A stretch of DNA of 64,000 nt from Kocuria sp. TGY1127_2 (GTDB lineage Bacteria; Actinomycetota; Actinomycetes; Actinomycetales; Micrococcaceae), in assembly GCF_013394385.1 (NCBI RefSeq), contig NZ_AP022834.1, forward strand, positions 930,001-994,000, read 5' to 3'. The notes under the pieces are model-generated. The model was given only the letters and a program-made list of their open reading frames with translations. It did no database searches and had not been told where the DNA came from. Made by a program: the position numbers and the translations under genes. This document shows, piece after piece, positions 10,530-18,918 of this stretch. Every line of letters begins with the position of its first letter. The stretch's first letter is position 1.

Positions 10530-10687
10530 CTCCATCACGCCGGAGGCCGCGTCCGGGCGGCGAAGTTCTCCTGGAATGCCCCGTAGTTTCCGGGAGGCCC
10601 GGCCGGTTGCCCTAAACTGGCAATAACGAGACCCCACACATCTTGGGGAAACTCCGCATCGCACCCAACAAAACCGAAGGTATGGCA

Positions 10688-12286
10688 GTGACCCAATCCG
10701 AAACCTCGGCGACGACCGAGTTGGAAGATCGTCCCGTTCTGGTCGTCGACTACGGGGCGCAATACGCCCAACTCATCGCACGCCGCGTCCGTGACGCCAA
10801 TATTTACTCGGAGATCGTGCCGCACACGATGTCGGCCGAGCAGATGCTGGCCAAAAAGCCCGCGGCCATCGTGCTGTCCGGCGGGCCCTCCAGCGTCTAT
10901 GCAGACGGTGCACCAGCGGGGGACCGCGAACTGTACGAATCCGGCGTCCCGATTTTCGGCATCTGCTACGGATTCCAGGTGATGGCGCAGACCCTTGGCG
11001 GGACCGTGGCAAAAACCGGCCTCCGCGAGTATGGGGCGACCGACGCAACCCTCACAGGAGGGGGAGTCTCGTTCCTCGCGGGCACTCCGGTCGCACAGAA
11101 CGTGTGGATGAGCCACGGCGACTCCGTGACGGAGGCACCCGCGGGTTTTGAGGTGCTCGCGAGCACCGAAGGGGCTCCGGTCGCGGCCTTCGTCCACGAA
11201 GGGCGAAAACTGGGTGGCGTGCAATGGCATCCTGAAGTCAAGCATTCCGATTTCGGCCAGGAGGTTCTGGAGAACTTCTTGTTCAACGTGGCGGGTCTGA
11301 AGCCGACGTGGACCACAGGCAACGTGATCGAGGAGCAAGTTGAGAAGATTCGCGCCCAGGTCGGAGACGCGCAGGTTATCTGTGCGCTGTCCGGCGGCGT
11401 CGACAGCTCGGTCGCGGCGGCGTTGGTGCACAAGGCCGTCGGAGACCAGCTGACCTGCTTCTTCATTGACCACGGTCTGCTGCGGGCCGGTGAACGCGAG
11501 CAGGTCGAACAAGACTACGCCGAAACGATGGGCATCAAGGTCGTCACCATCGACGAATCGGACCGGTTCCTGTCGGCTCTCGAGGGGGTCGCGGACCCCG
11601 AGGCCAAGCGCAAAGCCATCGGCCGAGAGTTCATTCGATCTTTCGAAGACGCCCAACGGAAACTGGTTGCCGAAGTCGGAGGCACTGGAGAGGACATCAA
11701 ATTCCTCGTGCAGGGCACGCTGTACCCCGACGTGGTCGAGTCCGGCGGCGGTGAAGGCGCCGCGAACATCAAATCCCACCACAACGTCGGCGGCTTGCCC
11801 GAGGACCTCGCTTTTGACCTCGTCGAGCCCCTTCGTACCCTGTTTAAGGACGAAGTTCGTGCGATCGGTCGTCAGCTCGGAGTCCCCGAAAAGATCGTCG
11901 CTCGGCATCCTTTCCCCGGACCAGGCTTAGGCATTCGAGTGATTGGCGAAGTGACCCGCGAAAACCTGGACGTGCTCCGGGCCGCGGATGCCATTGCTCG
12001 CGCCGAGCTGACCAAGGCAGGTTTGGACAGCGAAGTCTGGCAGATGCCGGTCGTCCTGTTGTCCCAGGTTCGCTCGGTGGGCGTGCAAGGGGATGGGAGA
12101 ACATATGGGCATCCCATTGTTCTTCGCCCGGTCTCCTCCGAGGACGCCATGACGGCAGATTGGTCGCGGCTCCCGTACGACTTGCTGGCGCGCATCTCGA
12201 ATCGGATCACCAACGAGGTCGAGGAAGTCAATCGAGTCGTGCTCGACGTGACCTCCAAGCCTCCGGGAACCATCGAATGGGAGTAA
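10688..12286 (+). CDS. guaA: GMP synthase (glutamine-hydrolysing)
   Basis: Converts XMP to GMP using ATP and glutamine. The class I glutaminase domain has the nucleophile Cys93 in GICYGFQ and the His181/Glu183 pair in GVQWHPE. The ATP-pyrophosphatase domain has the P-loop ALSGGVDSS, and the C-terminal dimerisation domain ends PPGTIEWE. The start is chosen at GTG 10688 because GAAGG lies 7 bases before it; ATG 10682 would be only 1 base from that site. With guaB and the guaB3-type gene it makes a local GMP-synthesis block. A long hairpin follows. Confidence 0.96.
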
Positions 12287-12313
12287 ACCCGTAGATTCAG
12301 GGTCCGCCCGAAA

Positions 12314-12354
12314 GACAATGGTCCGTCTCGAACTGATCGAGACGGACCATTGTC
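12314..12354 (+). terminator. Long hairpin after guaA
   Basis: An 18-bp perfect stem with a 5-base loop, followed by only two T. It is probably the guaA transcript end. The first ATG of the next gene's frame (12318) lies inside this stem, so that codon is unlikely to be a start. Confidence 0.75.
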
Positions 12355-12491
12355 TTCCCCGCGGCGAAGGAATTTGGACGTCTATACGGAATCCCGTTCG
12401 GTGTGCTTCTACTATAGAGATGGTGCGCGGTGAAGCCGCGACCCCTAAGATGTGCGAAGAATACGCCGACCACACCGGAAGCAGAGGCAAC

Positions 12492-15400
12492 GTGACGAAG
12501 CCACACTCCGCCGATCAGAACGAACAGGACACGTCCGAGGGAGCGACCTCGAATCCCTCGTCCGTTCCTTGGGCGAGCCCTCAGAACGCCGCAGAGGCCT
12601 CTGAAGGTCACCAGTCTTCTACGCAGGATAATGCCTCAACGCCCGGAACCCACGACCTCCGGATCGCTCGTGTCCGAACCGACGGGTCCGACGCCACTCG
12701 TCCGGAGTCCGTAACGTCGCTGGCTGATTGGTCCGAGGCACGTGCGGTTGACGGTTCCGGCGATGATGCGGGGCACAGCACTGAGCCGGGTCATTCGTCA
12801 TCGGAACCCGCTGCATCTCAGGTGAGCCGGAGCAGGGGCCCTGAAGCAATGCCCGATGACGATCAAGAGAACTACCCGTCAGAGGCGCCGTCAACCGACG
12901 ACCAGGGGCCTGACGAAGCGGATTCGGCGGACAATAACGAGCTGCTTCTCGACCGATGGCTGCGGCAAGTGGACGTGTACACGGGACCGGACGCCCTGCT
13001 GGACTTCAACCCGGTCGACAACGTGCACATCGATCTTTCGGGGTCCAACCCATCCGGATATGCTCAGTTGCTCGCCGGACGCAAGACCCGCCTGTCGACT
13101 ATTCTGCGTGATCGTGCGACGTTCACCAACGGGGTCCGCTCTGCGCGAGCAATACGAGGCAAGATCTTTGAGCTTGATGCCGACCACGGTCTCGAAGCTG
13201 GGTTCCTCGCCGCCGGCACGGCATCGTGGTTCGCCAAGCTGAACCCCTCCGGAATCCCCGACGGGGCCCGCGGGGAACGGCGTCACATCGCACCCGTGCT
13301 CCTGGCCCCGATCGTGATCAATCCTCATCCCGACGGAGACGACTTCGAGCTGCGGATCAACGGTCCTGCGCGGCTGAACCCGGCGATGGCCCGCCAACTG
13401 CGGCGTGACTTCGGAATCGACCTCTTCGCCAACGGGGTGCATCGAAAGGCCACATCCGGGTCCCGGCTTACGCCGGAGGCGGTTCTGGAAGCTATGCGCG
13501 CGGTGTGCATGAACGTTCCGGGAATGCATATCGAAGCGCGTACCGTGATCTCGACCTTCGCGGATCTTGCGGACACCGTGGGCGAACTGCCCGAAACAGC
13601 GACGTCGGGACTATTGCGAGACATCTCCGACCTCAACCGCGCCCAGATCAACGCGCCACGGGAACCCCGTGAATTCACCTCGAATCCTCTACCAGCGAAT
13701 GAGGTGGACCCGGCTGACGAGACCCTGGTTTACGATGCCGACGATACGGTTTCCGAGATTGTTCAGCGTGCTCGTGCCGGCGAGTCGATGACGGTCACGG
13801 CGCCGTCCGGAACCCATCATCTGCGTGCGGCGCTCAACGTCGCGGCCGGTCTCCTCTCCGAGGGCAAATCGGTCATGATTCTGGCCGAGCGTCGAGAAAC
13901 GTTGCACAATGTGCGGCGTCGTGTGGCTGACCTCGAGCTGTCCGACCTGACCCTTGAACTCGGCGAAGAGACCGATCCTGAGGGGCTGGCCCGGGACCTG
14001 ATCGAAACCATCGTCCGATACGAACAGGCGGTTGAGCCGCGGCTTGCGGGATTGCACGATGAACTCAGGAACATGAGGCGCCAGCTTGCCGAGCACGTGA
14101 CTTCGCTCCATTGGAGGGACGAACGCTGGGGAGTGACACCCCTCCAAGCGATGCAGACGCTCGCGGAACTGACGTCTCGGGATCCAGGGCCGTCGACGCG
14201 GGTGCGTTTCAAGCGTGCCGTCATGGACGCTACCGTTGATCGCTCCGAGACCGTGTCCCAGTTGGAGCGGGCTGCGGAACTCCGCGCGTTCAACCCTTCG
14301 ACGCGCACCGCGCCCTGGTACGGTGCTCGGCTGGTCAACACGGAAGAGACCAAACAAGCCCGGGCCCTGGTCCAGAGCCTTTTGCAGACCGCGCGTGAGC
14401 TGCGTCGCGAAATCAACGAAGGTTTCGACGGGATAGGTCTTAAGCCCGAAAGAACACTGGCGGGTTGGAAAAAGCAACTCGATTTGCTCGAAGGGATTCG
14501 GAACTCTCTATCCCGTTTCAATGGAGATATATTCGACCGTCCTGTTACGGACTTGATCGCGGCGACGGGCACCTCGACCTGGCGTCGGGAACGCGGAATC
14601 GACATGTCCGCGATTCAGCGCTCGCGTCTGCGCCGGGCCGCCAAGGAGTACATCATTCCTCAGGTGCACATCTCGGATTTGCACCAGGCCCTCATCGAGG
14701 TTCAGGCGCAGCGGGAGCAATGGCAGAGCTGGGCGGTCGAAGGCCGAACCGTCGGAATGCCGGGGAACCTCGAGAGAATCGGGAAGCTGTATGCCGAAGT
14801 AGCAGACAACCTGAGCGATCTTTCGATCGTGATGGAGGAGAGCCCTGTCCGGAAGGACTACTTCAATCTGCCGATTCCTGACCTGCTCGAGACGTTCGAA
14901 GCTATGGCCAACGACCGCATCCTGTTGGATACGCTTCCCGAACGTGAACAACTGACCCATATTCTTCGCGGAAAGGGCCTCGAGGACTTGCTCAAAGACC
15001 TCGAAGAGCGGCACGTTGCCACCGACCAGGTCGCGGCCGAGCTGGACCTCGCATGGTGGCAGTCTGCGTTCGAAATAATGCTCGAGCGGCCCGAAGTGAA
15101 CTTGGTCAGTGGAAAAACGCTTTCCGAGTGGGAGTCGGCTTTCCGTCGGGCCGACGTGGCCCACGTCGCCTCGGGACCCGCTCGCGTTCGGTATGCTGCG
15201 GCGCGCGGTTGGAACCAGCGGGTCCACCTGAAGCCTGTGCAGGCCAAGGAATTGCGTCAGATACTCAAAGGGGCTCCTATTCCCCTTTCAGGATATCTGC
15301 GCAGGGCTCCGGATATCTTGGCCGGGCTGCGACCATTGTGGCTATCCAGCCCGTTTGGCGTAGGCCGTACCCTGCCTCCGTCGGCAACCGTGGACGCGGT

Positions 15401-16748
15401 CATCGTCTTGGATGCCGAATCCACACCCTTGGGAGCGTGCTTGGCGGCCCTGGCGAGGACGCGGCAGGTCATTGCGTTCGGGGACGAGAATTCGGGATAT
15501 CCGCAACCGTTCATCGTTTCCCCGACCACCGGTGACGATCAGACACCGTCGAATGAGCGCGTCGATTCCGCGATGCATGTGCTGAGTCAGGTCCTGCCGG
15601 GCAAAACATTGGGACGTATCCATGAATGCCGTGACCAGGCTCTGGTTTCTTATCTGAACGAACACTTCTACGACGGCGCTTTGTCTGCCATGCCCTTCGG
15701 GGAAGAAGCAGTCAGCGGCGCACGTTCGATGAGGGTCGACTATTTGCGCAAACAGAAACCCGACGACCGCGTAGGGGCTCCCGTCATCGAGTCCCCGAAA
15801 GCCGAGGTGCGCGCCGTCGTGGACATGGTTTTTGAGCATGCTTCACGTGATCCGCGGCAGTCTCTTGCCGTCCTGACCGCCAGCCCCCGGCACGCTGCGC
15901 GCATTGCCGAAGGGATTCGCAGGGACTTGGACTCTCATCCGGAGCTCCGAGATTTCTTCGAGCCCGGATTGGAGCCATTCCGCGTCCTCGATCTGGCACG
16001 TGCTCAGGGATTGACTCGCGATCGGGTGATTTTCAGTTTGGGTGTTGCTCCGGAGGCAGGGTCCCGAGCATCGCACTTCGGGCAGCTCTCCGACGAACAC
16101 GGGCGCCAGCGCTTCGTGAAGGCGATGTCTACAGCGAGGTTCCACACTCGAGTGGTGAGCTCGTTGAGTCTTGATCAGCTCCGCGAGAGCGAACTCCGGA
16201 ACGGGATGACGGATTTGGTGGGCTTCCTGGAATCCTATGAGGCCGCGCACTCCGTTTCCGAGCCGGAGCAGGCTTCCATCTTGGCGCCCGAACACGCGAT
16301 CAGCGAGTTTCTGTCAGTCCACGATTCCAATGAAGAGGAATACAAGGCGGATTGGCTCTTGGCCGACCTTGCTCGTCGCTTGAGGGTGGCCGGGGCAGAG
16401 GTTTCAGTGACGCCTGGACAGGAAATCGATGGTTTGGCCACTGCACGAGCCGAGTCGATGTCCGCGGGGGCGGTTCTGAGCCCCCGGGCACGAACAGCCG
16501 GAACAGCAGACGGAAACGGCGGGGCGGCCATGCAACTTCCTGTTGCCTTGTCGACTGACGGGACGACTCAGTACGCGTCCCTGTCAGTTCGTGAGAGATC
16601 GCGGTTGAGACCCGAAAGGCTCGAGCGCACCGGTTGGAACCACGTGTCCTTGTGGACGGTCGATGTATTCGCCGACCCCCAGTCGGTTGCCGATCGCATA
16701 CTGGGTTACTTGGGGCTTGAGACCCCCGAGGTACCGGAGCAGCGATGA
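12492..16748 (+). CDS. Large SF1 helicase-like protein with degenerate P-loop and C-terminal nuclease-like domain
   Basis: 1418 residues from GTG 12492 (AGAGG just upstream; the frame is open from 12318 but that ATG is inside the guaA terminator). An acidic, low-complexity N-terminal 130 residues precede a DUF4011-like domain (WLRQVDVYTG...LLDFNPVDN). The Walker A position reads APSGTHH (437-443), with His-His where Gly-Lys is expected. The Walker B position reads VIVLDAES instead of a DEAx box. Later helicase motifs are recognisable but worn: FGDENSGYPQP, ARAQGLTRDRVIFSLG and STARFHTRVV. The last 60 residues (RERSRLRPERLERTGW...LWTVDVFADP) match the Vsr/DUF559-like fold at the end of DUF4011 helicases. 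The protein is probably not an ATP-driven helicase. The stop overlaps the next start. Confidence 0.78.
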   Translation: MTKPHSADQNEQDTSEGATSNPSSVPWASPQNAAEASEGHQSSTQDNASTPGTHDLRIARVRTDGSDATRPESVTSLADWSEARAVDGSGDDAGHSTEPGHSSSEPAASQVSRSRGPEAMPDDDQENYPSEAPSTDDQGPDEADSADNNELLLDRWLRQVDVYTGPDALLDFNPVDNVHIDLSGSNPSGYAQLLAGRKTRLSTILRDRATFTNGVRSARAIRGKIFELDADHGLEAGFLAAGTASWFAKLNPSGIPDGARGERRHIAPVLLAPIVINPHPDGDDFELRINGPARLNPAMARQLRRDFGIDLFANGVHRKATSGSRLTPEAVLEAMRAVCMNVPGMHIEARTVISTFADLADTVGELPETATSGLLRDISDLNRAQINAPREPREFTSNPLPANEVDPADETLVYDADDTVSEIVQRARAGESMTVTAPSGTHHLRAALNVAAGLLSEGKSVMILAERRETLHNVRRRVADLELSDLTLELGEETDPEGLARDLIETIVRYEQAVEPRLAGLHDELRNMRRQLAEHVTSLHWRDERWGVTPLQAMQTLAELTSRDPGPSTRVRFKRAVMDATVDRSETVSQLERAAELRAFNPSTRTAPWYGARLVNTEETKQARALVQSLLQTARELRREINEGFDGIGLKPERTLAGWKKQLDLLEGIRNSLSRFNGDIFDRPVTDLIAATGTSTWRRERGIDMSAIQRSRLRRAAKEYIIPQVHISDLHQALIEVQAQREQWQSWAVEGRTVGMPGNLERIGKLYAEVADNLSDLSIVMEESPVRKDYFNLPIPDLLETFEAMANDRILLDTLPEREQLTHILRGKGLEDLLKDLEERHVATDQVAAELDLAWWQSAFEIMLERPEVNLVSGKTLSEWESAFRRADVAHVASGPARVRYAAARGWNQRVHLKPVQAKELRQILKGAPIPLSGYLRRAPDILAGLRPLWLSSPFGVGRTLPPSATVDAVIVLDAESTPLGACLAALARTRQVIAFGDENSGYPQPFIVSPTTGDDQTPSNERVDSAMHVLSQVLPGKTLGRIHECRDQALVSYLNEHFYDGALSAMPFGEEAVSGARSMRVDYLRKQKPDDRVGAPVIESPKAEVRAVVDMVFEHASRDPRQSLAVLTASPRHAARIAEGIRRDLDSHPELRDFFEPGLEPFRVLDLARAQGLTRDRVIFSLGVAPEAGSRASHFGQLSDEHGRQRFVKAMSTARFHTRVVSSLSLDQLRESELRNGMTDLVGFLESYEAAHSVSEPEQASILAPEHAISEFLSVHDSNEEEYKADWLLADLARRLRVAGAEVSVTPGQEIDGLATARAESMSAGAVLSPRARTAGTADGNGGAAMQLPVALSTDGTTQYASLSVRERSRLRPERLERTGWNHVSLWTVDVFADPQSVADRILGYLGLETPEVPEQR

Positions 16749-17056
16749 CCTCCGGTCCTTCTGACAGCGGTACGCCTGCGCCCGACAACGAATCTTCGGG
16801 CGCAGGTCCCCGCGAGACCGACAAAGATACTGGGGGCGCGAGAAAATTCCGCCACCGTGGACCGCGACGCGCGACCGGCGGCACCTCCGCGAGCCAAGGG
16901 GAACCGGAACGGTTGGCAGGTATTGCCGGATCTGCACCGACGCTTCATGGCCAGAGTACAAGCGGTTCCGGCTCGTCCAAAGCATCGGGGACGGCCCAGC
17001 CCGAAGACGCTCGAAGCCGGTGGCTGCGCGAACAGCGGCCCCCTCATTGGGATTGA
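16745..17056 (+). CDS. Small actinobacterial protein coupled to the helicase-like gene
   Basis: 103 residues. Its ATG overlaps the stop of the preceding gene (ATGA), implying translational coupling. The first 85 residues are Gly/Ser/Pro-rich and probably disordered. The C terminus SRWLREQRPPHWD is a compact Trp/Arg/Pro motif that I recall from small proteins in related actinobacteria. I know no function; coupling suggests it works with, or is regulated with, the helicase-like protein. The 103 bases between its stop and the convergent gene at 17160 hold nothing I can identify. Confidence 0.65.
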   Translation: MTSGPSDSGTPAPDNESSGAGPRETDKDTGGARKFRHRGPRRATGGTSASQGEPERLAGIAGSAPTLHGQSTSGSGSSKASGTAQPEDARSRWLREQRPPHWD

Positions 17057-17159: not shown

Positions 17160-17843
17160 TCATCCTTCGGGGCTTCTGGCTACGACGACAGCCTCACTAT
17201 TCAATCCGGCCAACTGCTCCGCGGTGGACGGATCAACGGCAAAGAATGCCAAGTTTCCTCCTGAATTCGAGCCCGAATTCTGGAGGAGAGGTGAATTCTG
17301 TGGATTTTCCGGAGCCAATATCAGCAGCCCCTCTGCCTTGACCTGTTCGCCATGGTTTCCGGCCACGAACAGGTGAACCGGCGCCGACTGTCCTATGAAC
17401 TTCAAAGAATCCGGGTCTCGGACTCGCAGACCCATGGCAACCATTCCGTCAGGCAATCTTTGAATGAGGTGGGCGGAGACCGTCATCGAGGCCGTAACCT
17501 GTTGGCCGAGATCAACCGGCACAGCGAGCCTGGAACCGGTCAGAGAATCGATTCGCGCACTGGCCTCTGGCACGGAATCGGCCCACGCCCCCAAGACCTC
17601 GATGGATTCGAGGTCGGCCTCCGAAATCCTGTGTCCCGCGGGCAGAGCTCGCTTCGCTACCACAATTTCAGCACTCGAGCCCTGTATCGAAGGTTTCAGG
17701 AACACGCTGGCCACGGCGGACCCGACCAGCAGGACGACCCCCAGAAAGCGTGCTCGGCGGCTGACCCGGGAGCGGAGGCGGACACTGATCGGAACGGTCT
17801 TGTGGAACCCGCGGCGCGTGGCCTGATGCCGGAAAATACGCAT
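17160..17843 (-). CDS. SAF-domain protein (CpaB/FlgA-like), membrane-anchored
   Basis: 227 residues: a basic N terminus, one membrane anchor (about 33-50), then an extracytoplasmic SAF domain beginning VVAKRALPAGHRISEADLE, the signature of CpaB/RcpC Flp-pilus proteins and FlgA. The rest is divergent, and no pilus genes adjoin it, so a pilus role is not shown. The start ATG at 17843 has no good ribosome site; a GGAGGAGG sequence lies about 27 bases further upstream, so the start is uncertain. It is the last gene of a minus-strand group with the fmdB-like and cyclo-ligase genes. Confidence 0.72.
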   Translation of the reverse strand: MRIFRHQATRRGFHKTVPISVRLRSRVSRRARFLGVVLLVGSAVASVFLKPSIQGSSAEIVVAKRALPAGHRISEADLESIEVLGAWADSVPEASARIDSLTGSRLAVPVDLGQQVTASMTVSAHLIQRLPDGMVAMGLRVRDPDSLKFIGQSAPVHLFVAGNHGEQVKAEGLLILAPENPQNSPLLQNSGSNSGGNLAFFAVDPSTAEQLAGLNSEAVVVARSPEG

Positions 17844-18285: not shown

Positions 18286-18918
18286 TTACGGCGACTGACG
18301 AATTCTCGTGAATCCTTCATCGGTGCAGACCTGGGGCAACCGCGCATCGTGCGATTCCGAAGGCACGCGCCCGGCCTCCAGAAATTCGTCGGCAAAACAA
18401 ATGCCGATGTCGGCGGCGATGTGAGGTCCGTGTGCCGCGGCCTCGAGAGCAGTATCGTAAAACCCGCCGCCGTAGCCGAGCCGCACACCTCGAGCATCGA
18501 TCGCCAGAGCCGGTACGAGCCGAAGTTCGGCTTGAACAAAGGCTTCTGCGCCGAGGCGAGGGCCAACCGGTTCCTGGATTCCGAATCGGCTGATCTCGAC
18601 CCGGGTATCCGGGGTCCAGCGTGTCCAGTCAAGGACCCTGCCCGGTCGCGAGATGGGCGCCAGAATCGTCCTCCCGGATTCGTATATTGATCTGAGGGCG
18701 GGTCGGATCGGGGGCTCGGTCGCGGTCGGCAGGAAGGCACATACCGTGCCGTTGATCGGGACAGTCTCGATCACGAAATCCAAAAGTGCATTTCGCCAGG
18801 AATCCGCCAGGAGCCGGCGCTGCACACCCTCGCTGTCCTGTTCACACCGGTAGACGCGTGCCGCGAGCAGTTTCGTCCGAAGGTCTGACTTTGCCCGGAC
18901 GAGCTTGCTGGTGTTCAT
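18286..18918 (-). CDS. 5-formyltetrahydrofolate cyclo-ligase
   Basis: 210 residues. It carries the family motif RLGYGGGFYD (binding of ATP phosphates and folate) and an N-terminal basic segment beginning KSDLRTKLLAAR. The enzyme converts 5-formyl-THF to 5,10-methenyl-THF with ATP, returning stored folate to one-carbon metabolism. The ATG at 18918 has GGAGGA upstream. It is divergent from galU and heads a minus-strand group of three. Confidence 0.9.
   Translation of the reverse strand: MNTSKLVRAKSDLRTKLLAARVYRCEQDSEGVQRRLLADSWRNALLDFVIETVPINGTVCAFLPTATEPPIRPALRSIYESGRTILAPISRPGRVLDWTRWTPDTRVEISRFGIQEPVGPRLGAEAFVQAELRLVPALAIDARGVRLGYGGGFYDTALEAAAHGPHIAADIGICFADEFLEAGRVPSESHDARLPQVCTDEGFTRIRQSP

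Follow-up and report, generated by a model that had tools for sequence, protein, structure and literature searches.

Why should an actinobacterium keep a very large protein built like a helicase once the motifs of its ATP site have gone? The question is raised by a locus of Kocuria sp. TGY1127_2 (Micrococcaceae; genome of 3.0 Mb), where a large and a small open reading frame (ORF) overlap within the stretch of DNA analyzed here, namely 64,000 nucleotides of contig NZ_AP022834.1 (positions 930,001 to 994,000), which we call the window and from whose first letter all positions are counted. An earlier note on this DNA had described the large product as a superfamily 1 (SF1) helicase-nuclease with an inactivated P-loop, selected for another role and coupled to a small partner. 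We find that the ATP-site motifs are lost, that the gene is conserved together with its neighborhood, that its relatives are under purifying selection, and that a tail is carried by the large protein in some relatives and encoded next to it in others. As an explanation, we give about even chances to the large protein being an ATP-independent nucleic-acid scaffold (a pseudohelicase) with a partner-docking tail.

The ATP site in the large protein and its relatives

The large ORF has the following elements, compared with the same sites in intact relatives; homologs without the Walker A Lys are called dead below.

12492..16748, + strand: large ORF, 1,418 aa from GTG 12492, with a DUF4011-like N-terminus, a degenerate pair of SF1 RecA domains separated by an insertion, and a degenerate MTES_1575/Vsr-like nuclease end
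13800..13820, + strand: Walker A site, APSGTHH (PPGTGKS in intact relatives)
14619..14651, + strand: basic stretch RSRLRRAAKEY, within the segment inserted between the RecA domains, near the consensus RSRLRRxAKEY of mostly dead relatives
15408..15422, + strand: Walker B/motif II, LDAES (FDEAS in intact relatives)
15468..15497, + strand: motif III region, VIAFGDENSG, GD retained, Gln gone (intact: GDERQLPP)
16008..16034, + strand: motif V region, (A Q) GLTRDRVIF, QG retained, Asp and Glu gone (intact: QGDERDAII)
16122..16148, + strand: motif VI region, AMSTARFHT, first Arg gone, second retained (intact: AITRSRRR)
16422..16442, + strand: EIDGLAT, site of the first nuclease Asp, which is retained (IDLAV in intact relatives)
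16545..16562, + strand: ALSTDG, site of the nuclease E-x-D, with Glu replaced by Ser (AVExDG in intact relatives)

The earlier note had read APSGTHH, LDAES, and a frame of more than 1400 codons, and all three are exact (12492-16748 translates as 1,418 codons). Column by column, the intact PPGTGKSQ of motif I corresponds to PSGTHHLR in the window, and the intact FDEAS to VLDAE, which places Leu at the Asp column and Asp at the Glu column. Of what marks an active SF1 enzyme, the window protein is without the Walker A GKS/T, the DExx of motif II, the Gln of motif III, a complete QGDE in motif V, and a complete TRxR in motif VI. An SF1 core without the Lys, the motif II Glu, and the motif III Gln is not expected to hydrolyze ATP, and the large protein therefore probably has no ATPase activity. 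The basic stretch RSRLRRAAKEY is a candidate nucleic-acid contact; the stretch aligned to it is basic in intact relatives as well.

Among named families, the best matches over the helicase part are NCBIfam ProA (NF058533; 6.4e-76, 256 bits with a cut-off of 1500) and PADLOC PDC-S37 (1.1e-79, from a model without a stated cut-off); an intact ortholog, locus L073, scores 801 bits. The window protein differs from ProA and PDC-S37 in falling far under the ProA cut-off, in its lost ATP-site motifs, in being encoded by a core gene, and in the tail that is carried or adjacent. With NCBIfam Hhe (NF042953; 5.9e-38) it shares the DUF4011 plus SF1 helicase lineage at 130 bits, whereas the cut-off is 2000 and the ATP-site motifs are lost; the curated equivalog cut-offs of both ProA and Hhe are thus failed. 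The C-terminal domain resembles Pfam MTES_1575 (PF18741), a Vsr-like restriction endonuclease domain described in PMC3710099 (as far as the excerpt goes), and matches it over residues 1409-1462 of a longer, 1,476-aa reading of the frame, but at 6.8e-06 and 26.5 bits, below the cut-off of 38.2, and with the Glu of E-x-D lost. Pfam DUF4011 finds no match in the window protein; it scores above its cut-off in the family relative L026 (35 bits vs 22.2) and in four intact relatives (L073, L071, L240, and L093). Of the DUF4011-type SF1 architecture with a Vsr-like end that had been claimed, the SF1 core stands, on the ProA and PDC-S37 matches and on an alignment with intact relatives that is continuous over much of the length; the nuclease end stays below threshold, and DUF4011 is matched in relatives and not in the window. 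A sequence search of solved structures returned nothing at E <= 10. The ancestor of the large protein is probably an SF1 helicase-nuclease of the DUF4011/MTES_1575 kind (ProA, Hhe).

The nearest named relatives of the window protein come from Rothia and Kocuria, and the gene is found far beyond them. It is present in 119 of 120 genomes of the family, its own included, and in all 32 genera; the sole genome of the 120 searched without a match to the large protein is G073. In the order, 97 of 99 genomes have a match, some of them weak or partial, and in the class 17 of 98, six of which lie within the order. Selection was measured on the central part of the protein in pairs of relatives only, the window protein being in no pair: the ratio of nonsynonymous to synonymous substitution rates (dN/dS) is 0.037-0.208 in 11 of 11 pairs, all of them without the Walker A Lys. 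The sampled relatives of the large protein are under purifying selection.

How widespread is the loss? When the best 120 of 473 homologs were aligned with the query (121 rows, two of which are the window protein), the Walker A Lys was missing in 119 of 119 homologs, none of which has GKS/T, and motif II read LD(A/S/G)(E/D)(S/T/A) in every one. A wider set of 98 rows covers 19 of the 20 families of the order (f12 is not represented) and three families outside it; the corresponding tree omits duplicates, 22 of the 50 family loci, and those of L101-L117 that are fragments or distant paralogs. Here 92 of 98 rows are without the Lys, with variants such as GTGQT, GTGGT, GTGAT, GADxx, and others. The six that keep it are both rows of family f5, three of the six f17 rows, and the single row of f45, a family outside the order. 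In f5 and f17 the tail lies downstream of the intact copies (L073 is fused to it) and a SAF gene follows the intact copy at the f5 locus L158, and because of this position we take them as orthologs. Named intact copies with a tail are those of Pedococcus cremeus (fused), a Nostocoides, a Luteipulveratus, Flexivirga caeni, and an Intrasporangiaceae metagenome-assembled genome, which are five of the first seven rows of a scan favoring intact copies by design. Loci L236, L240, and L073 have Walker A and DEAS intact and still carry the RPPHW tail, which makes them a natural set for an ATPase comparison.

With the two motif stretches excluded from tree building, the tree requires four losses if the site is never regained. 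Collapsing nodes below 0.8 again gives a minimum of four; the count is nevertheless approximate, since two of the loss nodes are poorly supported (0.238 for the rest-of-order clade and 0.003 for the dead f17 group). The ATP site thus appears to have been lost several times, about four, at one locus.

What was lost can be compared with what was kept in the 92 dead rows set against 19 intact sequences (L211 is in neither class). Retention is 0.00 for the Lys by class definition, 0.30/0.04 for the Asp/Glu of motif II, 0.04 for the Gln of motif III, and 0.13/0.08/0.13 for the Gln/Asp/Glu of motif V. At fold positions it reaches 0.99 (first Gly of motif I) and 0.93/0.97 (GD of motif III), and within motif I the Thr and the second Gly are kept at 0.61 and 0.64. 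On average the ATP-site columns are retained at 0.41 vs 0.58 for other columns invariant in intact sequences (permutation p 0.009; p 0.020 without the Lys and 0.038 without Lys and Ser). The absence of the Lys, the core presence, the dN/dS values, and this retention of ATP-site columns together support the earlier claim of inactivation with selection for another role. The alternative that the note itself had named, intact orthologs with decay in this strain only, holds in one half: intact copies do exist, at the same locus in only two other families among the sampled rows. Decay confined to this strain is rejected by the lack of the Lys across homologs, core presence, and dN/dS.

A tail fused to the large protein or encoded beside it

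Directly after the large ORF comes the small one, with these elements:

16745..17056, + strand: small ORF, 103 aa, counterpart of the fused tail, with an ATGA overlap with the large ORF
16850..16882, + strand: basic element RHRGPRRATGG of the small protein, which recurs in its close homologs
17018..17053, + strand: C-terminal tail motif RWLREQRPPHWD at the end of the small protein

As the earlier note had seen, the 103-residue frame overlaps the stop of the large ORF: its ATG (16745-16747) begins one base ahead of the TGA (16746-16748), and its C-terminus reads WLREQRPPHWD. The tail consists of a basic element, in many relatives an acidic Trp-containing stretch, and an end of the form WLxEQRPPHW, and the small protein conforms to the family pattern, in which the ORF closes with L-x-x-E-(Q/E)-R-P-P-H-W at the C-terminus.

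We looked for the tail in 50 family loci (30 + 20) of the 119 positive genomes, using a model of 18 tails, four of them from these same loci, and accepting matches down to 8 bits. All 50 have a match (two below 9 bits). In 18 it is the large protein's own C-terminus; in the other 32 it belongs to a frame of its own, which from stop to stop either overlaps the large ORF or comes within 4 nt of it. The small protein thus corresponds to a tail that the large protein has either in cis or in trans. In the wider set, 83 of 98 loci (18 fused) have an ORF with the ending PPH[WYHF] no more than 750 nt from the end of the large ORF. Among control ORF ends, the counts are 0 of 538 for the opposite strand in the same zone, 0 of 3100 and 3 of 2431 within the gene, and 1 of 3036 and 1 of 2984 elsewhere. 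Fifteen loci are without a tail, 11 of which have fewer than 900 downstream bases, several showing the tail in longer sequence. None was found at L217 and L218 (f20; more than 2.3 kb downstream), L203 (f10; 1.7 kb), or L092 (f25; 1.1 kb), nor at L093 (f45), whose 831 downstream bases cover the full 750 nt. Families f20 and f10 seem to be truly without it. On the tree, the fused or split state changes 11 times, against a mean of 16.5 and a minimum of 13 when shuffled.

The tail reaches further than the large protein does. A DNA pattern for its end matches once each in 27 of 296 class genomes, always within 3 residues of an ORF end, whereas the same pattern run backwards gives 11 matches in 10 genomes. 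The 18-tail model (E <= 0.01) matches 62 of 96 class genomes, each of them a single time; given so short a model, weak matches in distant genomes could have arisen by chance. Six of these 62 belong to the order; of the others, the large protein is matched to some degree in 10 and not at all in 46. The displayed class-level tails read LPxxTxDDTDxGWGE ... RLLxERPPHW, PPHH, or similar, and one free version has nine homologs of 42-52 aa. Wide occurrence of the small protein without the large one, which the earlier note had set against its own proposal, is therefore largely true of the motif at the C-terminus, which 46 of 96 class genomes have in the absence of any match to the large protein. A strict two-protein system is too narrow, given that the motif occurs more often than the large protein does; the coupling itself stands, as 18 of 50 family relatives have both parts in a single polypeptide, and the strictly paired version is narrowed rather than kept.

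Of 32 loci compared, 16 have a gene of the MscL cluster next to the tail and 15 a gene of the SAF cluster (Pfam confirms MscL for two members tested and SAF for one); seven of the 16 MscL-adjoining genomes also carry the large protein. At L145-L149 and L165-L194 we see tiny acidic single-copy proteins from many actinobacterial families, ending in (E/Q)RPPHW/H or similar. In family f35 the tail protein is located elsewhere, e.g., after an Rv2466c-like gene: at L147 (8156-8353) it sits between a gene for an Rv2466c-like mycothiol-dependent nitroreductase and one for an aldehyde dehydrogenase, L148 being similar, and its surroundings at L145 (4928-8125) and L149 (4336-7660) include genes for terpene synthase and for a TPR/STAND-like ATPase. 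Three free tail proteins, the small protein of the window, and two relatives had no NCBIfam or Pfam match up to E 10. Titles and abstract openings in the open-access literature yielded nothing on this large protein or its tail, so that for the tail peptide we found no described family or paper in these searches.

The surroundings of the locus

The neighboring features are listed here:

10643..12286, + strand: guaA (GMP synthase), conserved upstream neighbor
12312..12356, + strand: perfect 20-bp hairpin with a 5-nt loop, containing ATG 12318, between guaA and the large ORF
17160..17843, - strand: SAF-domain protein, convergent neighbor
18286..18918, - strand: 5-formyltetrahydrofolate cyclo-ligase, recurrent neighbor

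In 20 wide family loci, guaA is directly upstream in 19, and the 20th stops at a contig edge; SURF1, DUF3817, SAF, folate cyclo-ligase, and galU homologs are the recurrent neighbors. A defence island was considered and rejected: most of the flanking window ORFs that match a Pfam family are housekeeping genes, although no search against a defence library was made. Scanning Rfam at gathering thresholds returned one tRNA only.

The longest reading of the large frame opens at ATG 12318 and gives the 1,476-aa version. We set this start aside, since it sits within the 20-bp hairpin, and consider GTG 12492, which is preceded by AGAGG, the more plausible start. The N-terminal residues, upstream of about 12939, are of low complexity and disordered in appearance. 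The hairpin (-45 kcal/mol, z -9.1; 0 of 200 shuffles equally stable) has no T-run after its stem and may be read as a guaA terminator or a regulatory element.

What the large protein and its tail may do

Most likely, an SF1 helicase-nuclease of the DUF4011/MTES_1575 kind would have become a vertically inherited core gene of an actinobacterial order and would then have lost its ATP site several times, and its nuclease residues in many lineages, under purifying selection throughout. The large protein would bind nucleic acid without ATP, as a scaffold, and the tail, in cis or as an adjacent ORF, would dock onto it a partner common to actinobacteria. That nucleic-acid binding is retained is suggested by the kept basic stretch RSRLRRxAKEY and by the precedent of Deinococcus radiodurans PriA, which according to the abstract of PMC4504706 has no ATPase or unwinding activity, yet binds DNA and interacts with DnaB. 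This loss of ATPase with DNA binding and a protein partner kept may serve as a model for the window protein, although PriA belongs to another helicase family and the abstract mentions no fused or split tail. In Pseudomonas aeruginosa, an excerpt of PMC10250203 describes a large DUF4011 gene that flanks a defence hotspot and is present in every isolate examined, beside a conserved small hypothetical gene; the likeness covers core status and a small neighbor, and the case may be a parallel one. As for the tail, a free peptide present across the class and repeatedly fused to one scaffold is the pattern expected of a docking peptide with a conserved partner, though it does not name that partner. 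A wider version of the scaffold reading, to which we give slightly less than even chances, makes the tail (LPxxTxDDxxxGWGE...DxRLLxERPPHW) an ancient single-copy docking or regulatory factor that in one order would have adopted a helicase-nuclease as carrier, whose ATPase was then lost about four times, leaving a core non-enzymatic scaffold for a class-conserved partner.

Several observations weigh against the scaffold reading. Helicase residues persist in dead rows (0.64 for the first motif VI Arg, 0.64 for the motif IV Arg, 0.79 for the Q-motif Gln), the window itself keeps QG in motif V and one Arg in motif VI, and the ATP site shows only a modest excess of loss when the class-defining Lys is excluded (p 0.02-0.04). 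Retention of the fold is read from the alignment. Fusion is partly bound to lineage, as the label changes are fewer than in shuffles, and since the tail exists without the large protein, docking to this scaffold cannot be its only role. The small protein of the window, moreover, aligns with no more of the tail model than its final 17 residues, and the GWGE half is not seen in it.

Could the protein still be an enzyme? The earlier note had offered an ATP-independent nuclease as one option, in which the RecA part is a mere DNA platform and the MTES_1575 domain still cuts. Many family rows do retain the first Asp and the Glu of E-x-D (L016, L026, and L045, for example, read ID or LD ... AIESDG or ALESDG), and the window keeps the first Asp. 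Its ALSTDG, on the other hand, has Ser for the Glu, which is lost under other spellings in its nearest relatives too; several families of the order have IP where intact copies have ID, and in the 92 dead rows D and E are retained at 0.44 and 0.33. The catalytic roles are assigned by family pattern rather than structure. The window protein falls short of an MTES_1575/Vsr-like nuclease both on the Pfam cut-off and on the Glu, and for this protein the option is weakened to a decidedly improbable one. Binding of ATP through an unusual P-loop would fit the kept motif I glycines and Thr (0.99, 0.64, and 0.61) and motif III GD; we think it very improbable, as the Lys, the motif II Glu, the motif III Gln, and the motif V Gln, Asp, and Glu are mostly gone, and in ways that differ between families. 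Lost motifs and a low-complexity N-terminus are also what a decaying relic would show, but decay is contradicted by the core status of the gene, by frames that stay open over a great length in relatives, and by dN/dS of 0.04-0.21, and we give this explanation hardly any weight.

Two further explanations place the protein elsewhere in the cell. A domesticated anti-phage protein, with the dead helicase acting as sensor or decoy, would agree with ProA, Hhe, and PDC-S37 as the closest named families and with the patchy presence of the intact f45 relative (one of five f45 genomes), as in accessory defence genes; we consider it unlikely for a core gene at a fixed housekeeping locus, the Pfam-matched ORFs around which are mostly housekeeping (these neighbors were not searched against a defence library). 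A housekeeping regulator tied to guaA, folate cyclo-ligase, galU, and mscL, and not to nucleic acid, would account for the strongly conserved synteny and for the MscL and SAF clusters beside the tail (16 and 15 of the 32 loci). Those neighbors are functionally mixed, however, a strong hairpin divides guaA from the large gene in the window, and the f35 tail protein has other neighbors (the Rv2466c-like nitroreductase gene), so that we hold this to be rather improbable too.

In this actinobacterial order, a helicase-nuclease of about 1,300 residues has been kept as a core gene despite the apparently repeated loss of its ATP site at one locus. Intact orthologs beside the same tail in other families make a helicase role without ATP testable by comparing orthologs. 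The tail offers a handle: it is a single short peptide that occurs free or fused, and actinobacteria presumably have its partner in common.

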